Positions 48,640 through 62,637 of a DNA stretch of 64,000 nt are shown piece by piece. The notes beneath the pieces are model-generated. The model was not told where the DNA came from, searched no databases, and was given only the letters and a program-made list of their open reading frames with translations. The DNA is taken from assembly GCA_017623055.1 (NCBI GenBank), contig JAGAPX010000018.1:1-64000 (forward strand), given 5' to 3'. The stretch comes from Phascolarctobacterium sp. (lineage in GTDB: Bacteria > Bacillota > Negativicutes > Acidaminococcales > Acidaminococcaceae). The first letter of the stretch is position 1. Each line of letters starts with the position of its first letter. Made by a program: the position numbers and the translations under genes.

Positions 48640-51078
48640 TTACGCTGCCGGTTCCTCTTCGATTGCGGGAGCTGCGTCAGCTACAACTTGAGCCAATTTG
48701 CTGCCATAATCGTCACGATCTTCGTAATCGTTTACACGAACACGTTCAACTTTGTTAGCGTCGTCGTCAGCACCTTTAATACGGTCGATACGGATTCTGC
48801 CAAGCTCAGCTTCGAATTCTTTCAGCAATCTGCCGTCAACGGGGAAGCCTTTTTCAAGAGCTCTGTACAGCATTGCTGCGTATTCGTAACGGGTCATGCT
48901 ACGGTCGCCGCCGAAGTTGCCATCGGGATACCCTTCGATGATACCGCGTTTTTGGAGGTTTTCAACATAATCGTATGCCCAGTGATTTTCAGGAACATCC
49001 GGGAACATAACAGTGTCGAGGAGCGGGTTGCCTTTGCCTGCGATTTGGCTAACCAGTGCAGTGAGGGCTGCTACTTGATCGCGCAGGTCTTGAATTTCGT
49101 GAGCCATTGCCACACGAGAGTTGCTTACATTATTCTTACGGTCGAGAGCGAAGGTTACGCCTGCATTTACCATGTTTTCGCCATTACCCATGGTACCTGC
49201 TACGCTGAACATAACTTTTTCAGTGGGACGATAGAATGCGCCCAAAGCCGCAGCAGTTTCGCCACGATAGTTACCTACGCCTGCGCTGAATTGGAGTTTG
49301 TCGTCAGGATCAAAATCCATGGGGTGAAGTGCTGCCAACGCTGCTGCACCTGCGCCCACTTTGTCCAAACGAGTACCGAGTTTGTCAAGACGATTGCCAA
49401 GCATATTATCGCCTGCAATGCGGTCTTGTTGTTCTTTCCAAAGTTGGCTACCATTGATAGCGTCTTGAGAAGTTTCGGAAACTTCGCCATCAGCAAGTTC
49501 AGTAATTTTATCTCCGTTCATCTCGATACCATTATTATCGATTACCAAACCATCAGTAATTTGAACTCCATCCATATTTCGAAGAGTGCTCGCCAAAGAA
49601 ATTGTATAGTTACCTAAACCTCTCGCTTTTTGAGTTACCTCAATGTTTGCACCAGCTTCAGTGCTCAAGGACTCAGCAAACAAAGTAGCAAAGTCTACCG
49701 CACCTTGCACTACATTACCAGAAGTATCTTGGAATTCCAAAACGATTTCCGGAACACCAGTAGTTTGGTCGATGTAACCGATTAATGCGTTATTGTTTAC
49801 CATATCTTGGTAAGCAGCTACCTGACCAGCATCATAGTTTCCATCTGCATCAGGAGTCATAACACGAGGAACAATAACATCAATCGCTCTTACGCCTTCG
49901 CCAAACAAATTCTTTTGAACCAAAGTAGTATCTTTAATAGTGGTAGAAGCATCTTCACCATTCTCGGTTTGAGTTACATTGTAGTAATTAACATTGTAGG
50001 TCTTACCATAATTATCAGTTACTTGCTCGGTTTGTCTTTCAGAAATATTGGTTACATTGTTATTTTCAATATTAACAATCTTGCTGTAGTTATTGTTGAT
50101 AGCTTGTTCAATAGTGCTGTTGCCACCTTCTTGAGTATCACTTTCTTGGTTGGTATCACCAGCGTAGTCAATGGTAGCATTGCCAATTCTCACATAGCTG
50201 CTATAAGTATCGCCAAAATTAGTAGTAATAGTAGAATCTAAATAATCACCGTTCAAAGCCATTTCGTGACCAGTAATGTGCTTGTCTTTAAATTCTATAG
50301 TTTGTTGTTGTCCACCAACATTTTGGTCCACATACCAAACGTCACCATCTTCTCTATTCTTATAGATGTTAGTCACATAATCATTTTTTATCTTAGTGAT
50401 TTCGTTGGTGTTGTTCTGAATATTAGTGGCGTTGTTTTCAATATTAGTTACATTATTATTGATAGCCTGTTCAATAGTAACAGGATTACCATCAACAGTT
50501 ACAGTAGCATCGCCAATTTTTACTTCATTGGAAACTACTTGTTTAGTATCATCGTTATGAGTAATAGTAGTTACAAGCTTACCATCTTTAATCTCATGTT
50601 GCACTACATTAGCATAAGTATCAACAGCATTAATAACATACGGACTAGTATCAGTTCCATTACCAGTAATATAAACATTCTTACCATCTTCTACCATTGC
50701 TTTAACATCATTAATAATGGTAGTATTTAAAATTTTATTGAACGCTGCGGTTGCATTGCTAGAAACAGTAGTATAGGCATACGTATCATTGTATAAATTG
50801 CCTAATGCGGCTCTAGCTTGAGCTTCGGTCATATAGTGTACGCCAGGAGTTTGATAAATATCTTTCTCTGTATTCTTACGATCACCACGATACAAAGTAA
50901 TACCTAAGCCAGTACTACCATCTGATTTTTCTGTAGCAGAAAGTACTACAAGCGCTTCATAAGAGTTGCCATGATTTGCAGTATCATCCGCCCACGCATT
51001 ACCCATTCCAGTTGCCCACACGCAACCTGCTGCGATAATGCTTGCTAAAATTCTCAAATTTCTTCTTTTCTTCGTCAT
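48640..51078 (-). CDS. Trimeric (YadA-type) autotransporter with C-terminal SLH domain
   Basis: An 812-residue surface adhesin from ATG 51078 (MTKKRRNLRILASII), with AAAGGAGGG upstream. The order is: signal peptide (~1-30); Asn-rich head and stalk with repeated IEQAINNN / NIENN coiled-coil motifs; YadA anchor (~570-645; GAGAAALAALHP, AALGAFYRP, GENMVNAGVTFAL); a coiled coil (~650-682); and an SLH domain (~691-744; FPDVPENHWAYDYVENLQKRGIIEGYPDGNF) before an acidic tail. The barrel is usually the last domain, so the added coiled coil and SLH should lie in the periplasm and tie the adhesin to peptidoglycan. An in-frame upstream ATG at 51213 lies in the leader and is not preferred. Confidence 0.9.
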   Translation of the reverse strand: MTKKRRNLRILASIIAAGCVWATGMGNAWADDTANHGNSYEALVVLSATEKSDGSTGLGITLYRGDRKNTEKDIYQTPGVHYMTEAQARAALGNLYNDTYAYTTVSSNATAAFNKILNTTIINDVKAMVEDGKNVYITGNGTDTSPYVINAVDTYANVVQHEIKDGKLVTTITHNDDTKQVVSNEVKIGDATVTVDGNPVTIEQAINNNVTNIENNATNIQNNTNEITKIKNDYVTNIYKNREDGDVWYVDQNVGGQQQTIEFKDKHITGHEMALNGDYLDSTITTNFGDTYSSYVRIGNATIDYAGDTNQESDTQEGGNSTIEQAINNNYSKIVNIENNNVTNISERQTEQVTDNYGKTYNVNYYNVTQTENGEDASTTIKDTTLVQKNLFGEGVRAIDVIVPRVMTPDADGNYDAGQVAAYQDMVNNNALIGYIDQTTGVPEIVLEFQDTSGNVVQGAVDFATLFAESLSTEAGANIEVTQKARGLGNYTISLASTLRNMDGVQITDGLVIDNNGIEMNGDKITELADGEVSETSQDAINGSQLWKEQQDRIAGDNMLGNRLDKLGTRLDKVGAGAAALAALHPMDFDPDDKLQFSAGVGNYRGETAAALGAFYRPTEKVMFSVAGTMGNGENMVNAGVTFALDRKNNVSNSRVAMAHEIQDLRDQVAALTALVSQIAGKGNPLLDTVMFPDVPENHWAYDYVENLQKRGIIEGYPDGNFGGDRSMTRYEYAAMLYRALEKGFPVDGRLLKEFEAELGRIRIDRIKGADDDANKVERVRVNDYEDRDDYGSKLAQVVADAAPAIEEEPAA

Positions 51079-51084
51079 AAGTCG

Positions 51085-51247
51085 TTCCCTCCTTTTGGTT
51101 GGAAATCTTTCGTCACACCAATCAAAAGTAGCTTTCGCTACGTTGTCGTCAACGGCAATCGAGTTTGCGGCTTGTGGCTTTTTAATAAATCCCTCCTTTA
51201 TTTTTTCTTTCATTTAGATTTGCAATACCTTCTTCCTTTTGTATTGC
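51085..51247 (-). ncRNA. Structured 5' leader of the autotransporter gene
   Basis: Read 5' to 3' on the minus strand the leader holds four hairpins. First, GCAATAC/GTATTGC (51247-51222) has AAGGAAGAAGG in its loop. Next, CGTTG-ACGA-CAACG (51154-51141) is followed immediately by TAGC-GAAA-GCTA (51140-51129, a GNRA loop). Last, a nine-pair stem TTTTGaTTGG / CCAAcCAAAA abuts the AAGGAGG site. The reading frame also stays open back to 51213. I do not recognise the RNA class. Confidence 0.45.
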
Positions 51248-55086: not shown

Positions 55087-55120
55087 AAAAGGCGTTCTCG
55101 AAAATTCGAGAACGCCTTTT
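55087..55120. terminator. Bidirectional terminator
   Basis: AAAAGGCGTTCTCGAA / TTCGAGAACGCCTTTT, a perfect 16-base stem with a two-base centre, between the convergent LysM and porin genes. Confidence 0.9.
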
Positions 55121-55135
55121 TTATTTTACTATATT

Positions 55136-56152
55136 TTAAAATCTATATACCACTTCAGACCAAATTGCTTGGTCACTCAAATCTTCACGACGAGTGGTCA
55201 AATCAAAGTATCTTACGGTTGCAACAAGATTTTTCGCCAAAGTATAGTTGGCTGCAATTTCAAAACCTTTATAACCATCTTTATTTGCTTTGGGATCATT
55301 ATTATAAGGTTCCCATTCAGGATCTTCTGCCCAGGCAATGAAGTAATTTGAATACTGAGAATTAGTGGAGTAAATATAAGTAGAAGCAGGAATATCGAAA
55401 TAGTTAAAGCTTACGCCCCAAGTACCTACTTCTCTTTCTTTCGCACCCTTATACGCCAAGCCTGCGTTCCAGCCATGGTTACTCAACCTATGCTTTTTGT
55501 CAGAAGATTCACCATAAGCATATTCCGCATTTAAAACAAGGTCTTGTGCTATTTCTGCACCAGCACCAATATTGAAGATTTCTTTTCTGTAATCAAGATC
55601 AGCATTATAGTAGGTAGCGTAAACATCAGTTGCGCCCAATTTTGTCGCAGCATCAAAAACAAAAATTTCAGTTGCATCATCTTGGGAGAAGAATCCTTTG
55701 TATTGAGGCTCTTGAATGTCAATATCAAGAGAACTACCTGCATAAACAGTAAGCTTCACTTCCTCACCATAAGTTGCCTTAACCCCATCAAAAATTCCAT
55801 CGATGATGTTGCCCTTGTTCAACATAATGCTTTGACGTCCAGCATCAAACTTCACTCCGCCAAGCTTACCGGAAACATAAGCAAGCTTAAATTCTGTATC
55901 CTCATCACTACTGTCACCCACAAGATTTGCTTCATTTTGCAACCGAGCAGTAAGACTCCAATTTTCATTGAATTGTCCTTGCAAATTTATGCGTGTACGC
56001 AAAATAGAATGACAAAGTCCCACATCAGAATCCCCATAATGAGCACGTACATCTCCACTTATTTTGATGGGTTCAGCAGCATTTGCCGCATAAGCAGAGG
56101 CAGTTACACCAAGTGCTAAAACCATAGCCAAAGTTAAAGCTTTCTTCATCAT
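55136..56152 (-). CDS. Outer-membrane beta-barrel porin
   Basis: A 338-residue protein with a signal peptide (MMKKALTLAMVLALGVTASAYA). The mature chain alternates polar and hydrophobic residues in many short strands, has aromatic girdles and ends in VVYRF, the C-terminal Phe of outer-membrane barrels. GDVRAHYGD and FDAGRQSIMLNKGNIIDGIFDGVKATYG resemble Negativicute putative porins. It lacks the N-terminal SLH domain of OmpM porins. It begins 4 bases after the symporter gene, so it is in one operon with two inner-membrane symporters. Confidence 0.82.
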   Translation of the reverse strand: MMKKALTLAMVLALGVTASAYAANAAEPIKISGDVRAHYGDSDVGLCHSILRTRINLQGQFNENWSLTARLQNEANLVGDSSDEDTEFKLAYVSGKLGGVKFDAGRQSIMLNKGNIIDGIFDGVKATYGEEVKLTVYAGSSLDIDIQEPQYKGFFSQDDATEIFVFDAATKLGATDVYATYYNADLDYRKEIFNIGAGAEIAQDLVLNAEYAYGESSDKKHRLSNHGWNAGLAYKGAKEREVGTWGVSFNYFDIPASTYIYSTNSQYSNYFIAWAEDPEWEPYNNDPKANKDGYKGFEIAANYTLAKNLVATVRYFDLTTRREDLSDQAIWSEVVYRF

Positions 56153-56156
56153 CAAA

Positions 56157-57737
56157 TCACCCCTTACGTAATTTATCGTAGTCTAACATATTCAAATCTC
56201 CTGCCAATTCCACAAGCTCTGTTTGTAAGCACAAGAGATTAACTGCAGTACAGATAAAGTCCATAATAACTTCCACTGCGATAATTATGGGTACTGCTTC
56301 TGCAGGAATATTTAATTGTAAAAACAGTAATGTATAACAAGTTAAAGAGCCACCGGGAATAGGCGGTGTTGCAATTGCTAAAACTACGCTGATAAACAAA
56401 GCGGTCAAAAGCCAGTTCAGAGAAATAGTTACACCATAAACTTCTGCCATACACATAGCTGCAGTCATAAATAAAATACAACCACCAATCATATAAATGA
56501 TTTGTCCCATGGGCACGCCAAAGTTTACAACACGCTTATCAATACCAAGTTTCTTTTCACAGGTTTCCATATTGCTGGCAAAAGCTGCGGAAGAAGAAGC
56601 AGTACTTACGGCAATAAAGAAAGTTTGAGAGAGCTTCTTTAATAGCAAAATAGGAGAAACCTTTTTGCGTAAGGAAATCATACCTACGTAAAAAGCAATT
56701 GCTACCACATAACCAATCACAGTCACCAACAAAATCTTATAAGCTTGAACCAAGATGGAAAAGTTATCGCTGATAATCATTCCCAATACACTCATAAAGA
56801 TAAAGTACGGTACAAACTTACTGATAGTTTCCATAATAAGATTGACGATATAGTTGGACTGCTCTACCAAAGAAGCCGCAGTTGTAGTCTTATTCCCAAG
56901 AATCAACATCGAAAGACCAATGACAATGGAAACAAAGATAATCTGTAAAGGATTGCCTGTAACGAAAGGTTCTACAAAATTTTTAGGAACCATATTCAAC
57001 ACAATCTTGTATAGGTCAAATAATTTGAAGCTTGTAGCCCCATCCATAGCAATATCAAAGAAAGGCAGAATAGGTAAACAACCTACGATAGTAACGACGA
57101 AGGACATAATTACGAACCGCGCCATCATTCTTTTACCAACGATACTAAAGGTAGTTGTATCACCAATACTATAAATACCCCAAGCAATGGAAAAGAAAAT
57201 CAAAGGCCCTGCAATCGCAGAGAGTATTCCCATAAAAGTATCAAAAAGCGGATTAATAAGATAAGTCCCAATGCCAAGACGAATATCGTCAGGCAAAAAC
57301 AAGCACAAGCCACCGCAAACAATAGCAGAAACAATGGAACCAATGAGCTGTTCCATTTGGGAATGTCCTTTTTTGCGAGGAATAAAGGTAATGCGGTTGA
57401 TGCCATTTACATATTCCCAGTTAGGTGCAAGCCCCATATTAACCATTACGCTGTTAAGCACTTCACTGCTCTCACCTTGTTCCACTTTTTCTTCAATTGG
57501 ATTGAAGCGAGCAGAGTTAATGTTTAGAACAATACGCGGTCTGCCAAAACGCTTGCGGCAATCCAAAGCAACTTCTTGTTCTTCACCAAAACGCTCTTGG
57601 TAGTTAAGCAAGATTTCTTCAGCAGCAAACTTAATGCGCATGGCATCCTTACGATCAACTTTGCACTTATCTAAAAATGCGCCAATCTCCTCGCTGATGA
57701 TATCAATATTCAAATTCGATAAAAGATAATTCGCCAT
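56157..57737 (-). CDS. SDF-family symporter with N-terminal GHKL-like domain, copy 1
   Basis: A 526-residue protein. Residues ~1-125 are soluble: RIKFAAEEILLNYQERF has the Glu41...Asn45 pattern of a GHKL N-box, and the region ends in strands like an RsbW-type domain, but G1/G2 motifs are absent. Residues ~135-500 are a glutamate/dicarboxylate (SDF) symporter, with the serine-rich hairpin STASSSAAFAS and IPGGSLTC. The usual NMDGT motif is missing (NFGVPMGQIIYM). The position equivalent to GltPh Arg397 is Cys (DFICTAVN), as in neutral amino acid carriers. It is the second gene of a symporter-symporter-porin operon. Confidence 0.85.
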   Translation of the reverse strand: MANYLLSNLNIDIISEEIGAFLDKCKVDRKDAMRIKFAAEEILLNYQERFGEEQEVALDCRKRFGRPRIVLNINSARFNPIEEKVEQGESSEVLNSVMVNMGLAPNWEYVNGINRITFIPRKKGHSQMEQLIGSIVSAIVCGGLCLFLPDDIRLGIGTYLINPLFDTFMGILSAIAGPLIFFSIAWGIYSIGDTTTFSIVGKRMMARFVIMSFVVTIVGCLPILPFFDIAMDGATSFKLFDLYKIVLNMVPKNFVEPFVTGNPLQIIFVSIVIGLSMLILGNKTTTAASLVEQSNYIVNLIMETISKFVPYFIFMSVLGMIISDNFSILVQAYKILLVTVIGYVVAIAFYVGMISLRKKVSPILLLKKLSQTFFIAVSTASSSAAFASNMETCEKKLGIDKRVVNFGVPMGQIIYMIGGCILFMTAAMCMAEVYGVTISLNWLLTALFISVVLAIATPPIPGGSLTCYTLLFLQLNIPAEAVPIIIAVEVIMDFICTAVNLLCLQTELVELAGDLNMLDYDKLRKG

Positions 57738-57773
57738 AACAGTTTCCTCTAAAATTAATTAGCATAAACAATT

Positions 57774-59360
57774 CTATTTCATCGGTTTACGCAACTTTTC
57801 GTAGTCCAACATATTCAAGTCCCCTGCCAGTTCTACCAGATCCAGTTGCAAACAGAAAAGGTTTACTGCTGTACCGAAGAACTCGGTAATAACGTTCAAA
57901 GCAATGATAATGGGGATTGCTTCAGAAGGGATGTTTAACTGCACGAAAAGCATGGTATAACAAGTAAGCGCACCACCAGGAATGGGCGGAGCTGCAATTG
58001 CCAAAACTGCGCTAATAATAAGTGCGGTCATCATCCAAACAGGAGAAATGGCTACGCCATAAATTTCTGCCATGCAAAGAGCAGCAGCAATAAACATAAT
58101 TGCACCGCCAAGCATAAAGACAATTTGTCCAAGGGGCACGCCAAAATTTACAATGCGTTTATCGATGCCAAGTTTCTTTTCACAGGTTTCCACATTCGTT
58201 GCAAAAGCTGCTGCTGAGGAAGCAGTACTTACTGCAATCACGAATGTAGGGAACAATTTTTTTATAAGCAAAGAAGGAGAAATCTTCTTGTGCACGCTCA
58301 CCAAGAACAAATAAAAAGCAATAACTATCGCTAATCCTGCCAAAGTAATAGGAAGCACCTTGTAAGCTTTCATCAAGGCAGAAAAATTATCGTTGAGGAA
58401 CATATTGAAGATACTGCCAAAAACAAAAGCCGGAACAAATTTACTAATGGTTTCCATCATAAGCTGCACTATGTAATTGGATTGTTCCATCATACTTGCC
58501 GCAACAGTAGTTTTGTTGGCTAAGATTAACATAGACAAACCAATACATACCGCCACAAAAATAATTTGCAAGGGATTGCCTTCGACAAAAGGAACGAAAA
58601 AGTTATTGGGAACCATTCCCAAAACAATTTTTAACAGCTCTTCTATATCAAAGGAAGCACCACCCTCCAAGGTGACAGGAAAGAAGAATAACATCAACAC
58701 CCCTGCAACGGTAGTTACCCCAAAAGTCATAAACAGAAAACGGCTTATCATTCGCTTGCCAATCTTACCTAGGGTAGCAGTATCACCAATACTATAAATG
58801 CCCCATGCTACAGAAAAGAAAATCATCGGTCCTGCGATTGCAGATAATAGACCCATGAAGGTTCCAAAAATGGGACCAATTATTTTATTTGCCAAGACAA
58901 GGCGCAAGCCGACAGGCAACATTAAACACAAGGAACCCAAGCCGATTGCAGAAAGTATGGAAATCGCCAACTGCATCATTTGGGAAACAGGCTTGCGTTT
59001 AGGTGTAAATATAACAATGTTATTGCCAGCCTTGTACTGATAAGTGGGAGCAATTCCCATATTTACCAAGATACTTTGCAAAACACTACTGTCTTCTTCT
59101 GTCACTTCCACTTTTTCATATGGGTTAAACCTTGCAGAAGGAAAGCGCAGTTCAACACGTGGTCTACCAAAACGTTTGCCACATTCAAAAACAACTACCT
59201 GTTCTTCGCCAAACTGCTCTTGATAATTGAGCAATGTTTCTTCCGCCACAAGCTTTATACGCATGGCATCCTTGCGATCAACCTTACATTTATCTAAAAA
59301 TTCGCCTATCTCTTCGCTAATGATATCTATATTAAAATTGGAAAGCAGATAATTAGCCAT
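57774..59360 (-). CDS. SDF-family symporter with N-terminal GHKL-like domain, copy 2
   Basis: A 528-residue paralogue of the preceding protein, from ATG 59360 (MANYLLSNFNIDI); an in-frame TTG at 59375 overlaps the ribosome site. It has the same soluble N-terminal domain (RIKLVAEETLLNYQEQF, Glu41/Asn45) and the same SDF core (STASSAAAFAT, IPGGALTC). NMDGT is absent and the GltPh Arg397 position is Gly (EFFGTAVN), with Glu for Asp394. The two copies therefore probably differ in substrate. It is first in the operon, behind an extended -10 at 59396. Confidence 0.85.
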   Translation of the reverse strand: MANYLLSNFNIDIISEEIGEFLDKCKVDRKDAMRIKLVAEETLLNYQEQFGEEQVVVFECGKRFGRPRVELRFPSARFNPYEKVEVTEEDSSVLQSILVNMGIAPTYQYKAGNNIVIFTPKRKPVSQMMQLAISILSAIGLGSLCLMLPVGLRLVLANKIIGPIFGTFMGLLSAIAGPMIFFSVAWGIYSIGDTATLGKIGKRMISRFLFMTFGVTTVAGVLMLFFFPVTLEGGASFDIEELLKIVLGMVPNNFFVPFVEGNPLQIIFVAVCIGLSMLILANKTTVAASMMEQSNYIVQLMMETISKFVPAFVFGSIFNMFLNDNFSALMKAYKVLPITLAGLAIVIAFYLFLVSVHKKISPSLLIKKLFPTFVIAVSTASSAAAFATNVETCEKKLGIDKRIVNFGVPLGQIVFMLGGAIMFIAAALCMAEIYGVAISPVWMMTALIISAVLAIAAPPIPGGALTCYTMLFVQLNIPSEAIPIIIALNVITEFFGTAVNLFCLQLDLVELAGDLNMLDYEKLRKPMK

Positions 59361-59395
59361 AAACACTTCCCCCAAGCATTAAAATATCTATTCAA

Positions 59396-59564: not shown

Positions 59565-61076
59565 ATGAAGAAAAAATTTTTTAGCCTGCTGGTATTTTTA
59601 GCCACATTGCTAACTGTTCTCCCCTGTTTTGCCGCTGGCGAGCAGAAAGTTTTTAAAACCTTAAACGATTTTAGCGAAGCCCGTTTCAGCACTTATAGCG
59701 GAAGCACCGCTGTTTATCATACTCAAAATGCAATTCCCCATGCAAACAATTTTGTTTATTACAGTACAATTGCAGATGCTATTGTTGCTTTGAAATCCAA
59801 CAAAGTAGATGCTTTCGTTTGTGATGACCCCGTTGCACGCTTGGCAGTTTCTAAAAATCCAGCGCTGAAAGTTTTTCCTGAACCGATATATCCTGACAAT
59901 TATGGGTTCGCTTTCCCAAAGAATAGTCCTTTGACTCCGCAGTTCAACAAAATCATCCAAAAATTTGCTTCAGACGGCACGCTCCAAAAGCTTAAAGATA
60001 TTTGGTTAGGGTCTGATGAAACCAAAAAGATTTTACCCAAGCAAGATTGGACTGGCAAAAATGGAACAATCCGCTGTTTTCACGACTATACTTCCGAACC
60101 AATTATCTATGTTGGCAGCGATGGACCCTTGGGCTACGAAATGGATGTTCTCCTGCGTATCGCTAAAGAGCTTGATATGAAAGTAGAACTAACCATGTGT
60201 GAATTTGACGGCTTACTTGCCGCACTGCAAAGCGGTAAGGCTGATGTTATTTGTGGTTGCATGTCCATTATGCCCGAACGTAAAAATGTAGTAGATTTTT
60301 CTGATCCTCATTACAAAGCAGCCTTAGTGCTTCTTATACGTAACGAAGCCTATGTTGCCTCCGAGGAAAACTTTTTCGATAGCATCATAGCAAGCTTCAA
60401 CAGAACTTTCATCGTAGAAAATCGTTGGAAGCTTATTCTTGATGGTCTCTGGGTTACCATTTTAATTTCTGCTTGTGCAGGCGTTGGTGGGTTACTCCTT
60501 GGCTTTATACTGTGTATGCTCAAGAGGGAAGGCAGTAAAACGCTTCGCCAAATCGTCAGCACTTTTATCCGTTTGATTCAAGGCACTCCCATCGTAGTTT
60601 TCTTGATGATATTATATTTTATTATCTTTGGCTCCGTTAACATCTCCCCTTTGCCCATTGCCATTTTAGGCTTCACCATTAACTTTGGCGTGTACGCTGC
60701 AGAAATTTATAATTCAGGGCTTGATACTGTAGATAACGGACAGAGAGAAGCAGCCCTTGCCCTTGGTTATACTCCTAAGCAAACCTTTTGGAAGGTAATA
60801 TTCCCCCAAGCTGCGCAACACTTCCTTCCAATATTAAAGGGCGAGTTTATTTCTATGGTGAAAACAACTTCCGTTGTAGGTTATATTTCTGTACAGGATT
60901 TAACTATGGTTACAGATATTATCCACGCACGTACCATGGAAGCCTTTTTCCCCTTGATAGTTACTGCGGCAATCTATCTGATTATCGCCAACCTGCTCAC
61001 ATCATTTTTAGATTTAATCGAAATCAAAATAAATCCTAAACACAGCAAACGAACTGTAAAGGGGGTTAAAATGTAA
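59565..61076 (+). CDS. Polar amino-acid ABC transporter: permuted binding protein fused to permease
   Basis: A 503-residue fusion. A signal/anchor (~1-24) is followed by a family-3 binding domain in swapped order. Residues ~30-155 are the usual second lobe and C-terminal helix ([44 protein letters not shown]). Residues ~165-265 are the usual first lobe ([64 protein letters not shown]). The HisM/GlnP permease follows (~285-490; [37 protein letters not shown]). Substrate is probably an amino acid. It overlaps the ATPase by one base. Confidence 0.87.
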
Positions 61077-62176
61077 TGACTAAAGAAGCTCTCATTAAAA
61101 TTAACCACCTTCGTAAAGAATATCCTAACGCCACTCCCTTAAAGAATGTTACTGCCACAATTTATAAAGGCGATGTAATTTCCGTTATCGGTCCTTCCGG
61201 TACAGGTAAGTCTACCCTTTTGCGTTGTATTAATATGATGGATCCACCCACCAGTGGCGACATATACATTAACGATGAAGCAATTACAGCTCCTAACTGC
61301 CAACTGCATTTACTTCGCCGTAAAATGGGTATGGTTTTCCAATCCTTTAACCTTTTTAACCACAAGACCGTCATCGAAAATATTATGATGGCGCCCATGG
61401 ATTTATTAGGCAAAAGTGCCCAAGAGGCTTACGACAAAGGCATGGAACTTTTACGCACTGTAGGCTTGGCTGATAAAGCACTTAACTTTCCCGACGAACT
61501 TTCCGGTGGACAAAAGCAACGTGTTGCCATCGCCCGCACCCTTGCCATGGAACCGGAGATTATTCTTTTTGACGAACCTACTTCTGCTCTTGACCCTACA
61601 AAAGTTGGCGAAGTATTGGAAGTTATCCGCGAACTTGCCCAAAAGGGAATGACCATGCTTATCGTTACCCACGAAATGAATTTTGCCAAAGATGTTTCCA
61701 ACAGAATTTTTTATATGGATCAAGGCGAAATTTATGAAGATGGTACACCTGAGCAAATCTTTGAACATCCTCAAAGAGAATTAACTCGTCATTTCATTAT
61801 GCGCACTAAGCTTATGGAAGAAATCATCACCTCTAAAGATTTCGACTTCATCGCTATTCGTAATAACATTGACCAATTTGGCAAAAAGTATCTGCTTTCT
61901 CCCAAATCAATTCATAATATGCAAGTTGTTTTTGAAGAATTGTGCGTGCAAACATTATTACCCTATCAAGGAGAATCACCCAATCTACAATTTAAGATAG
62001 AGTATTCCGATAAGACAAACTCTACCCAAATTCGCATTGCTTATCCTGACAAGGACTTTGACTTGGAAGAAGATATGGATATGATTTCTTTCGCTCTCTT
62101 AAAAAATGCAACTACTTCCATTAAAACAGCTTTAACTGAAAATGGCGAAAACGAATTCATTTTAGATATCAAATAA
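61076..62176 (+). CDS. Amino-acid ABC ATPase with C-terminal GHKL-like domain
   Basis: A 366-residue protein. Residues ~1-245 are a GlnQ-type ATPase with Walker [10 protein letters not shown], signature [15 protein letters not shown], Walker [13 protein letters not shown] and VTHEM. GlnQ proteins normally end there. The extra ~120 residues contain [19 protein letters not shown], then strands and a last helix plus strand ([27 protein letters not shown]), which follow the pattern of an RsbW/SpoIIAB-like GHKL domain. The N-box Asn is Gln (Glu288...Gln292), so ATP binding is doubtful. The STAS and PP2C genes follow. Confidence 0.85.
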
Positions 62177-62290: not shown

Positions 62291-62587
62291 ATGATTATTG
62301 ATAAACAACTCAACGGCAGCGAACTTATCCTTTCTTTGACTGGTCGTTTAGATACCACTACTGCACCTGAACTGGAAGCAGTTATTAAAGAAAATATTAT
62401 CGGCGTTACCAATTTAGTAATGGACTTCGCAGGTTTGGAATACCTTTCTTCCGCTGGCTTGCGTGTAATTTTGAGTGCTCAAAAAACCATGAACAAACAA
62501 GGTGAAATGGTTATCCGCAATGTAAACGAAACTATCAACGAAGTTTTTGAAATCACCGGTTTCATCGATATTCTCACCATTGAATAA
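62291..62587 (+). CDS. STAS-domain anti-sigma-factor-antagonist-like protein
   Basis: A 98-residue single STAS domain (SpoIIAA/RsbV type). The phosphorylatable serine region is YLSSAGLRVILSAQK, and GRLDTTTAPELEAVI at the start is typical. Such proteins bind RsbW-type GHKL proteins and are controlled by serine phosphorylation. AGGAGG precedes ATG 62291. No sigma factor or free RsbW gene is visible; its nearest GHKL partners are the domains fused to the adjacent transporters. Confidence 0.92.
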   Translation: MIIDKQLNGSELILSLTGRLDTTTAPELEAVIKENIIGVTNLVMDFAGLEYLSSAGLRVILSAQKTMNKQGEMVIRNVNETINEVFEITGFIDILTIE

Positions 62588-62605: not shown

Positions 62606-62637
62606 AAGCGAAGCATGGGATGTGCTTCGCTTCTTTT
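62606..62637 (+). terminator. Terminator between STAS and phosphatase genes
   Basis: AAGCGAAGCA / TGCTTCGCTT stem followed by CTTTT. It would make the STAS protein more abundant than the phosphatase. Confidence 0.7.

Follow-up and report, generated by a model that had tools for sequence, protein, structure and literature searches.

Two tandem genes for carriers of the SDF family in a Phascolarctobacterium sp. genome (assembly GCA_017623055.1; 1.72 Mb, 46 contigs) encode proteins with a fused N-terminal domain (N-domain) of about 125 residues that almost certainly has the RsbW/SpoIIAB fold and has lost its ATP-binding motifs, and genes for a complete PP2C/STAS/RsbW partner switch lie close by. 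Such switches are textbook controllers of sigma factors. We propose that the locus encodes a partner switch that acts on transporters in place of a sigma factor, a reading to which we give a probability of about 0.57, because of the N-domain fold, its dead-kinase motifs, linkage of fused carriers to switch genes, co-occurrence across genomes, and the failure to see any of the usual sigma factor clients. The window, i.e., the whole stretch of DNA analyzed, comprises bases 1 to 64,000 of contig JAGAPX010000018.1. The fused N-domain and the neighboring switch genes are the unusual part of this locus; the preliminary description, which was concerned with the substrate sites of the carriers, mentioned a fused N-terminal domain without identifying it and did not mention the switch genes. 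The module and its proposed clients are as follows.

57737..56157, minus strand: copy A, fused SDF carrier, open reading frame (ORF) of 526 aa
57354..57737, minus strand: copy A N-terminal RsbW/SpoIIAB-fold pseudokinase domain, residues 1-128 (AlphaFold, PDB matches, hhalign)
56157..57353, minus strand: copy A SDF elevator-carrier domain (Pfam SDF E 3.8e-62, alignments)
59360..57774, minus strand: copy B, fused SDF carrier, ORF of 528 aa
58977..59360, minus strand: copy B N-terminal pseudokinase domain, 66% identical to that of copy A (alignment; profile match E 3.8e-54, the sequence itself being in the profile)
57774..58976, minus strand: copy B SDF carrier domain (Pfam SDF E 2.5e-62)
59565..61076, plus strand: ABC importer subunit, a solute-binding protein (SBP) fused to a permease (Pfam SBP_bac_3 in two stretches, BPD_transp_1)
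61076..61789, plus strand: ABC ATPase (Pfam ABC_tran E 1.8e-35; top NCBIfam matches TcyN and GlnQ, both below cut-off)
61790..62176, plus strand: C-terminal domain of the ABC ATPase, 128 residues, related to the SDF N-domain (hhalign)
62291..62587, plus strand: STAS anti-sigma-antagonist with a Ser-Ser phospho-acceptor loop, S53/S54 (TIGR00377 above cut-off)
62669..64513, plus strand, held by the window up to 64000: membrane sensor PP2C phosphatase of SpoIIE/RsbU type, 614 aa (SpoIIE E 6.6e-52)
64510-64917, plus strand, past the window end: intact RsbW-like kinase, 135 aa (HATPase_c_2 E 4.1e-22)

The two tandem copies are 66% identical. For copy B, a TTG at 59375 is a further possible start in the same frame, but initiation at the ATG (59360) yields MANYLLSN, the N-terminus found in copy A. 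SDF (PF00375) is the sole Pfam match in both proteins (copy A residues 132-501, E 3.8e-62; copy B residues 134-501, E 2.5e-62), and their N-terminal ~130 residues have no match in Pfam or NCBIfam.

Several lines of evidence make it close to certain that the N-domain is an RsbW/SpoIIAB-fold (anti-sigma, GHKL) domain. First, an AlphaFold model of the copy A N-domain was built from 59 homologues (pLDDT 85.7), and a full-length model (pLDDT 75.5) shows the same secondary structure in this region. In VIA-align, the ten highest-scoring PDB rows of the N-domain model are all anti-sigma proteins of the RsbW/SpoIIAB type (Z 10.8-12.0, root mean square deviation 2.4-3.2, 100-124 residues), followed by LvrC (Z 8.6), SiaB (8.5), and histidine kinases (6.9 and lower), and the top PDB rows in Foldseek are UsfX, SpoIIAB, and RsbW complexes (E 5e-4 to 1e-3). 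Second, hhalign of 15 N-domains against five intact RsbW-like kinases gave 97.5% (E 8.9e-12); identity as a STAS domain was rejected, the control comparison with a STAS alignment giving 0.4%. Third, a search with the N-domain profile recovered the RsbW-like kinase of the genome itself at E 3.3e-5. HATPase_c_2 gave a weak match below cut-off (E 0.019) in one of six SDF fusions scanned (L045) and none in the other five, and the viral contigs searched held no relative. The highest of 4,989 scored shuffled sequences reached 10.0 bits with the N-domain hidden Markov model, a score exceeded by 21 of 30 kinase, ABC, and MATE domains. The top scorer among these, L091 (72 bits), is in fact a broken SDF fusion; the next has 41 bits.

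The fused domains have, however, lost the motifs of their kinase relatives. These were counted in an alignment of 114 RsbW-like domains, in which we take the motifs of active kinases to be the N-box Asn, G1 Asp-x-Gly, and G2 Gly-x-Gly. Of the 13 stand-alone rows, 12 retain the N-box Asn (L091, the broken fusion, does not), as do all four PP2C-fused kinases; among fused domains it is found in 6 of 83 on SDF carriers, 0 of 9 on ABC proteins, and 0 of 4 on MATE proteins. Copies A and B do have this Asn and lack the G1 Asp, the G1 Gly, and the G2 glycines, and an active serine kinase was rejected on these motifs. Judged by these residues, the fused N-domain is a catalytically dead kinase whose ATP-binding motifs are gone. 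Other positions have been retained across the SDF N-domains, i.e., the N-box Glu (60/83), the G1 Gly (76/83, with Ser in both window copies), the next Pro (80/83), and the Asn of NGxN (83/83).

Next to the fused carriers, a STAS protein with a phosphorylatable Ser, a PP2C phosphatase, and an RsbW-like kinase occur together, and the Ser-Ser loop is invariant in the 10 STAS proteins aligned. The sensor region of the PP2C is common to 3 of 32 other PP2Cs collected (L207 and L089, each 44% identical, and L196, 25%); in the tree, the SDF fusions of the corresponding loci or genomes (L207, L089, and G028) all belong to the 11-row group of the window copies. The fused carriers are likely to belong to the STAS/PP2C/kinase module. 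The C-terminal domain of the ABC ATPase likely has an RsbW-type fold as well: hhalign gave 90.5% (E 1.4e-6) against the SDF N-domain profile and 66% (E 5.5e-5) against the RsbW-like domains, and a related ABC C-domain in G369 matches HATPase_c_2 at E 1.9e-4, below cut-off.

Within the order, SDF matches extend into the N-domain in at least 9 of 63 genomes. At E 0.001, the N-domain profile has a match in 14 of the 398 genomes searched across the phylum and, within the class, in 116 of 380; these matches include some stand-alone kinases and ABC or MATE fusions. Of 76 loci read, 69 have an in-frame SDF fusion; L088, L091, and L093-L097, in which no in-frame fused SDF was recognized, were dropped, and L206, a copy of L036, was left out of the locus count. 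Forty class-level loci were hand-picked for long contigs and varied genera among the matches listed, 20 unfused SDF controls from 16 of the genomes searched were also chosen by hand, and all ORFs of at least 80 aa, including antisense-overlapped genes, were annotated in the neighborhoods. A switch gene (STAS, PP2C, or kinase) lies within 7 kb in 21 of the 69 fused loci versus 1 of the 20 controls; under the stricter criterion of 350 bases and the same strand, the counts are 12 versus none (one-sided Fisher tests, relatedness ignored, 0.015 and 0.037, respectively). The linkage recurs in several lineages, with the following gene runs.

STAS, PP2C+kinase, SDF fusion: L089, L207
STAS, kinase, SDF, SDF, PP2C: L143
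PP2C+kinase, STAS, SDF, SDF: L038, L041
STAS, SDF, PP2C: L092
STAS, PP2C, SDF: L132
PP2C, SDF: L081
SDF, STAS: L130, L131, L158
SDF, two SBP-permeases, ABC fusion, STAS, kinase: L037

The association extends to whole genomes. In the order, a strong SpoIIE-type PP2C (E 1e-12) is encoded by 9 of the 10 genomes that match the N-domain profile and by 8 of the 53 that do not (P = 9e-6, ignoring relatedness); the exception among the former, G038, is 84% complete.

A classical client of the SigB/SigF/SigG type was not found in the genome: the two small sigma-70 proteins scanned reached at most 71 bits (a 211-aa protein) against a cut-off of 234. Sigma-70 proteins number three, namely, one of RpoD size, a SigH above cut-off, and the 211-aa protein. 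There is a single STAS gene; of the two SpoIIE-family matches, one is the PP2C of the module (E 4e-53) and the other, of 272 aa, is weak although above cut-off (E 1.2e-6), and the three HATPase_c_2 matches are the RsbW-like kinase, a histidine kinase (judged from sequence) beside a response regulator, and one weak match. Comparison with other genomes indicates that the presence of the module does not track that of a dedicated sigma factor here. The module is complete in G041, whose sigma complement consists of an RpoD-sized protein, one that is SigH-like but scores below the SigH cut-off, and a single weak hit, while G025, of the same genus and 99% complete, has three sigma-70 hits and no STAS, strong PP2C, or N-domain match.

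We postulate the following mechanism. The membrane PP2C, through its external sensor, would dephosphorylate the STAS protein and the intact RsbW-like kinase would rephosphorylate it, such that the balance between the two determines how far the only STAS protein of the cell is phosphorylated. In its form that binds RsbW folds, the STAS protein would dock on the dead domains, i.e., the N-termini of the SDF carriers and the C-terminus of the ABC ATPase. Docking may then directly switch uptake on or off, bypassing gene expression.

The carrier domains themselves belong to the SDF/DAACS family (PF00375), as indicated by the Pfam E-values and by AncInt and GltPh as best structures. The best PDB matches are the ancestral, uncoupled AncInt (254 bits versus 175 for the best GltPh chain). 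Residues were called by aligning both copies with MAFFT to a reference of GltPh TM7-TM8 (transmembrane helices 7 and 8); the result agrees with the profile alignment. In copies A and B, respectively, Thr308 is Ile/Ile, Asn310 Tyr/Phe, Met311 Met/Met, Asp312 Ile/Leu, and Thr314 Gly/Gly, with Gly313 kept; Asp390 is Glu/Asn, Asp394 Asp/Glu, Arg397 Cys/Gly, and Asp405 Leu/Leu, with Thr398 and Asn401 kept. The preliminary description was therefore right that both copies lack the NMDGT motif (Y/M/I in copy A and F/M/L in copy B at 310-312, G at 314) and that Arg397 is replaced, by Cys in copy A and by Gly in copy B. It did not mention the loss of Asp405, of the Na1 site, in both copies. The Arg397 of carriers of acidic substrates is missing from both copies, which supports the preliminary description on this point. 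As for an Arg supplied by another segment, the case that it named as refuting, the GltPh Arg before the Ser-rich tip of HP1 (presumably Arg276) aligns with Ala in both copies.

The suggestion of a neutral amino acid carrier resembling the ASCTs was not supported. ASCTs have Cys or Thr at 397 and keep NMDGT intact, whereas here Cys is found only in copy A and NMDGT in neither copy. Moreover, residue 397 is scattered in the 37-row clade that contains both copies (S7 G6 L5 F5 M4 A3 C2 E2 R1 V1 D1), R397 being kept in 1 of 37 rows. Asn310, Asp312, and Asp405 are gone in all 37 rows, in agreement with the earlier proposal that ion coupling may differ, and 14 rows have Arg at position 405. The other 43 fused rows keep N310 in 39, D312 in 23, D405 in 25, and R397 in 27; for 43 unfused rows the counts are 42, 32, 43, and 29, respectively. 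A tree of the carrier domain alone, which was a quick build with several long branches, separates the 80 fused from the 43 unfused rows by a single branch (SH-aLRT 84, below 95), so repeated independent fusion is not needed within this SDF sample.

The published signature of Na+-coupled SDF carriers is N310, [M/S]311, [D/E]312, and [D/E]405, together with positions 92-93, and that of H+-coupled carriers is a hydrophobic residue at 92, L311, and N405 (PMC12668577). Compared at 310, 311, 312, and 405, the window copies (Y/F, M/M, I/L, and L/L) fit the Na+ signature only at 311; compared at 311 and 405, both have M311 and L405 and so depart from the H+ signature. These residues suggest that the SDF domains probably work uncoupled or with another ion, and their substrates would be other than aspartate and glutamate. 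A poor conservation of Na+ ligands is also described for the ExtInt clade (PMC12668577). Longer tandem arrays of SDF fusions occur elsewhere, with five in L161 5980-13964 (G573) and three in L162 5780-10528 (G597); seven of these eight have Arg at the Asp405 position.

One gene downstream of the carriers bears on how they might be used.

55136..56155, minus strand: outer-membrane beta-barrel/porin-like ORF, starting 1 base past the copy A stop

Its Pfam matches are weak and below cut-off (OMP_b-brl 27.4 bits, cut-off 28.7; Porin_O_P 19.2 bits, cut-off 20.9). The same order after copy A recurs in the sister genome G024 (L036 5585-6604), and the ORF and copy A are probably in one operon. A terminator-like hairpin (55087-55120), listed for the plus strand, lies between the porin-like ORF and a convergent LysM gene.

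Several observations weigh against a partner switch acting on transporters. The switch genes and the ABC importer are transcribed divergently from the SDF operon. No switch gene lies within 7 kb at 48 of the 69 fused loci, several of which are at contig ends; therefore, either the switch proteins are encoded elsewhere for most loci or the link is not general. The linkage tests, besides ignoring relatedness, rest on loci and controls that were partly hand-picked. A HMMER search of PDB sequences with the N-domain profile returned no chain below E 0.1, and 9 of the 30 kinase, ABC, and MATE domains, including the ABC C-domain of the window (8.1 bits), scored no better than the best shuffle. ATP motifs are partly kept in the ABC and MATE domains (second G2 Gly in 5/9 and 2/4, G1 Asp in 0/9 and 2/4, respectively). 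Finally, the loss of Na+ ligands means that some SDF domains could have stopped transporting, and the 211-aa sigma factor could be the client of the kinase.

The principal alternative, which we regard as unlikely, is that the SDF protein acts as a receptor or co-sensor, in which case binding of substrate would alter the titration of STAS by the pseudokinase and thereby steer the ABC importer, the kinase, or gene expression. The absence of N310, D312, and D405 throughout the 37-row clade looks as if concentrative transport were dispensable. There is also a precedent in DctA, an SDF-family carrier. In Escherichia coli, DctA works with the sensor kinase DcuS and sets its response (PMC5703999). 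However, related domains are carried by an ABC ATPase and by MATE exporters, which are not obvious receptors, the module already has a sensor of its own in the PP2C, and the position of the porin-like gene directly after copy A in both Phascolarctobacterium genomes suits uptake.

A classical switch on the 211-aa sigma factor, with the fused domains serving as decoys or as a membrane tether for the switch, seems improbable. That protein exists and has partial similarity to SigB/F/G (71 bits, cut-off 234), but G025, which is without the module, retains a sigma-70 hit of similar strength (a 120-aa frame), and the sigma complement of G041, which has the module, is limited to the RpoD-sized, SigH-like, and weak hits noted above. 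In the gene runs of L038, L041, L089, and L207, moreover, the fused SDF is the sole candidate client among the gene types profiled. The remaining possibility, that the N-domain is a relic or a trimer-stabilizing addition with no regulatory role, would fit the loss of ATP motifs and the 48 loci without a nearby switch gene but is likewise improbable given that the fold, the N-box Glu, the G1 Gly, the next Pro, and the NGxN Asn are conserved across a diverse family and that ABC and MATE proteins bear related domains too, in several cases adjoining STAS or PP2C genes.

The proposed transporter switch resembles known systems in part. Like RsbU-RsbV-RsbW and SpoIIE-SpoIIAA-SpoIIAB, which control SigB and SigF, it has a PP2C, a Ser-Ser STAS protein, and an RsbW-fold kinase in one cluster, but the small sigma factors are below the SigB/F/G cut-off and inactive RsbW-fold copies sit on transporters. 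SiaA-SiaB-SiaC, comprising a PP2C, the SiaB kinase, and SiaC, is a switch whose output, as proposed here, is not a sigma factor, and SiaB is among the structural matches of the N-domain (Z 8.5), but the output of that switch is not known to be a transporter. The STAS protein MlaB binds the ABC ATPase MlaF and hence acts on a transporter rather than a sigma factor (PMC7367683); unlike in that system, STAS is proposed here to dock on an additional RsbW-fold domain, and the locus encodes a kinase and a phosphatase. The carriers share the elevator fold of GltPh, GltTk, the EAATs, and the uncoupled AncInt (SDF/SLC1), whose PDB chains are the best matches, and differ from them in the fused N-domain and in the loss of N310, D312, and D405 across the clade.

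A literature search, for the most part without subscription papers and bioRxiv preprints, found no description of an RsbW-like fusion to SDF, ABC, or MATE proteins, and the available main text of PMC12668577 has no occurrence of “N-terminal,” “phosphatase,” or “anti-sigma.” If the proposed switch is real, fused pseudokinase domains would provide gut bacteria with a fast, posttranslational layer of nutrient control and would supply a context for a carrier family that has dropped its Na+ ligands. How cells use SDF carriers that show neither a Na+ nor an H+ signature would become directly testable.

More tentatively, and with slightly less than even odds, dead RsbW-fold domains may be a general docking tag by which SDF carriers, ABC importers, and MATE exporters have been made direct clients of PP2C, STAS, and kinase proteins in Bacillota, gating transport without transcription; through a fusion of STAS to a condensation domain, peptide synthetases may perhaps be included. 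In L088, L187, and L202, genes for STAS, kinase, and/or PP2C proteins lie close to those for MATE exporters that bear a HATPase_c_2-like domain at the C-terminus (E 1.3e-4 to 7.8e-4, in every case under the Pfam cut-off).

Locus L187 (G052:C31, 2132-14642) contains, in order, a PP2C, a fusion of STAS to a condensation domain of a nonribosomal peptide synthetase (NRPS), an NRPS with AMP-binding, PCP, and condensation domains, a MATE/HATPase_c_2-like fusion, a STAS protein, an RsbW-like kinase, and a PP2C. The order of profiled genes is the same in L186, and parts of it occur in L188 and L199 (Pfam was run on L187 and the L188 STAS fusion only). In this cluster a partner switch is apparently wired into peptide synthesis and export. 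A different combination is found at L096 8037-9620 (G377), where a protein of 527 aa joins STAS, an APH-type phosphotransferase, and an intact-looking HATPase_c_2 kinase domain, with STAS and PP2C genes nearby.

The nearest named relative is a Phascolarctobacterium metagenome-assembled genome, with 95% identity to copy A. Gene order there is the same to the end of its contig, with a third SDF fusion between the two. A relative of the SBP-permease in G028 (L037 6600-9689) is a 1029-aa version in which three successive parts match that of the window. Between the STAS and PP2C genes of the window there is a terminator-like hairpin at 62606-62632, in a region with 11 such sites versus 6.3 expected from shuffles. 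Farther from the carriers, positions 48640-51213 of the window encode an 857-aa trimeric-autotransporter-like protein in which a YadA anchor (635-689) is followed, near the C-terminus, by an S-layer homology domain (737-779).

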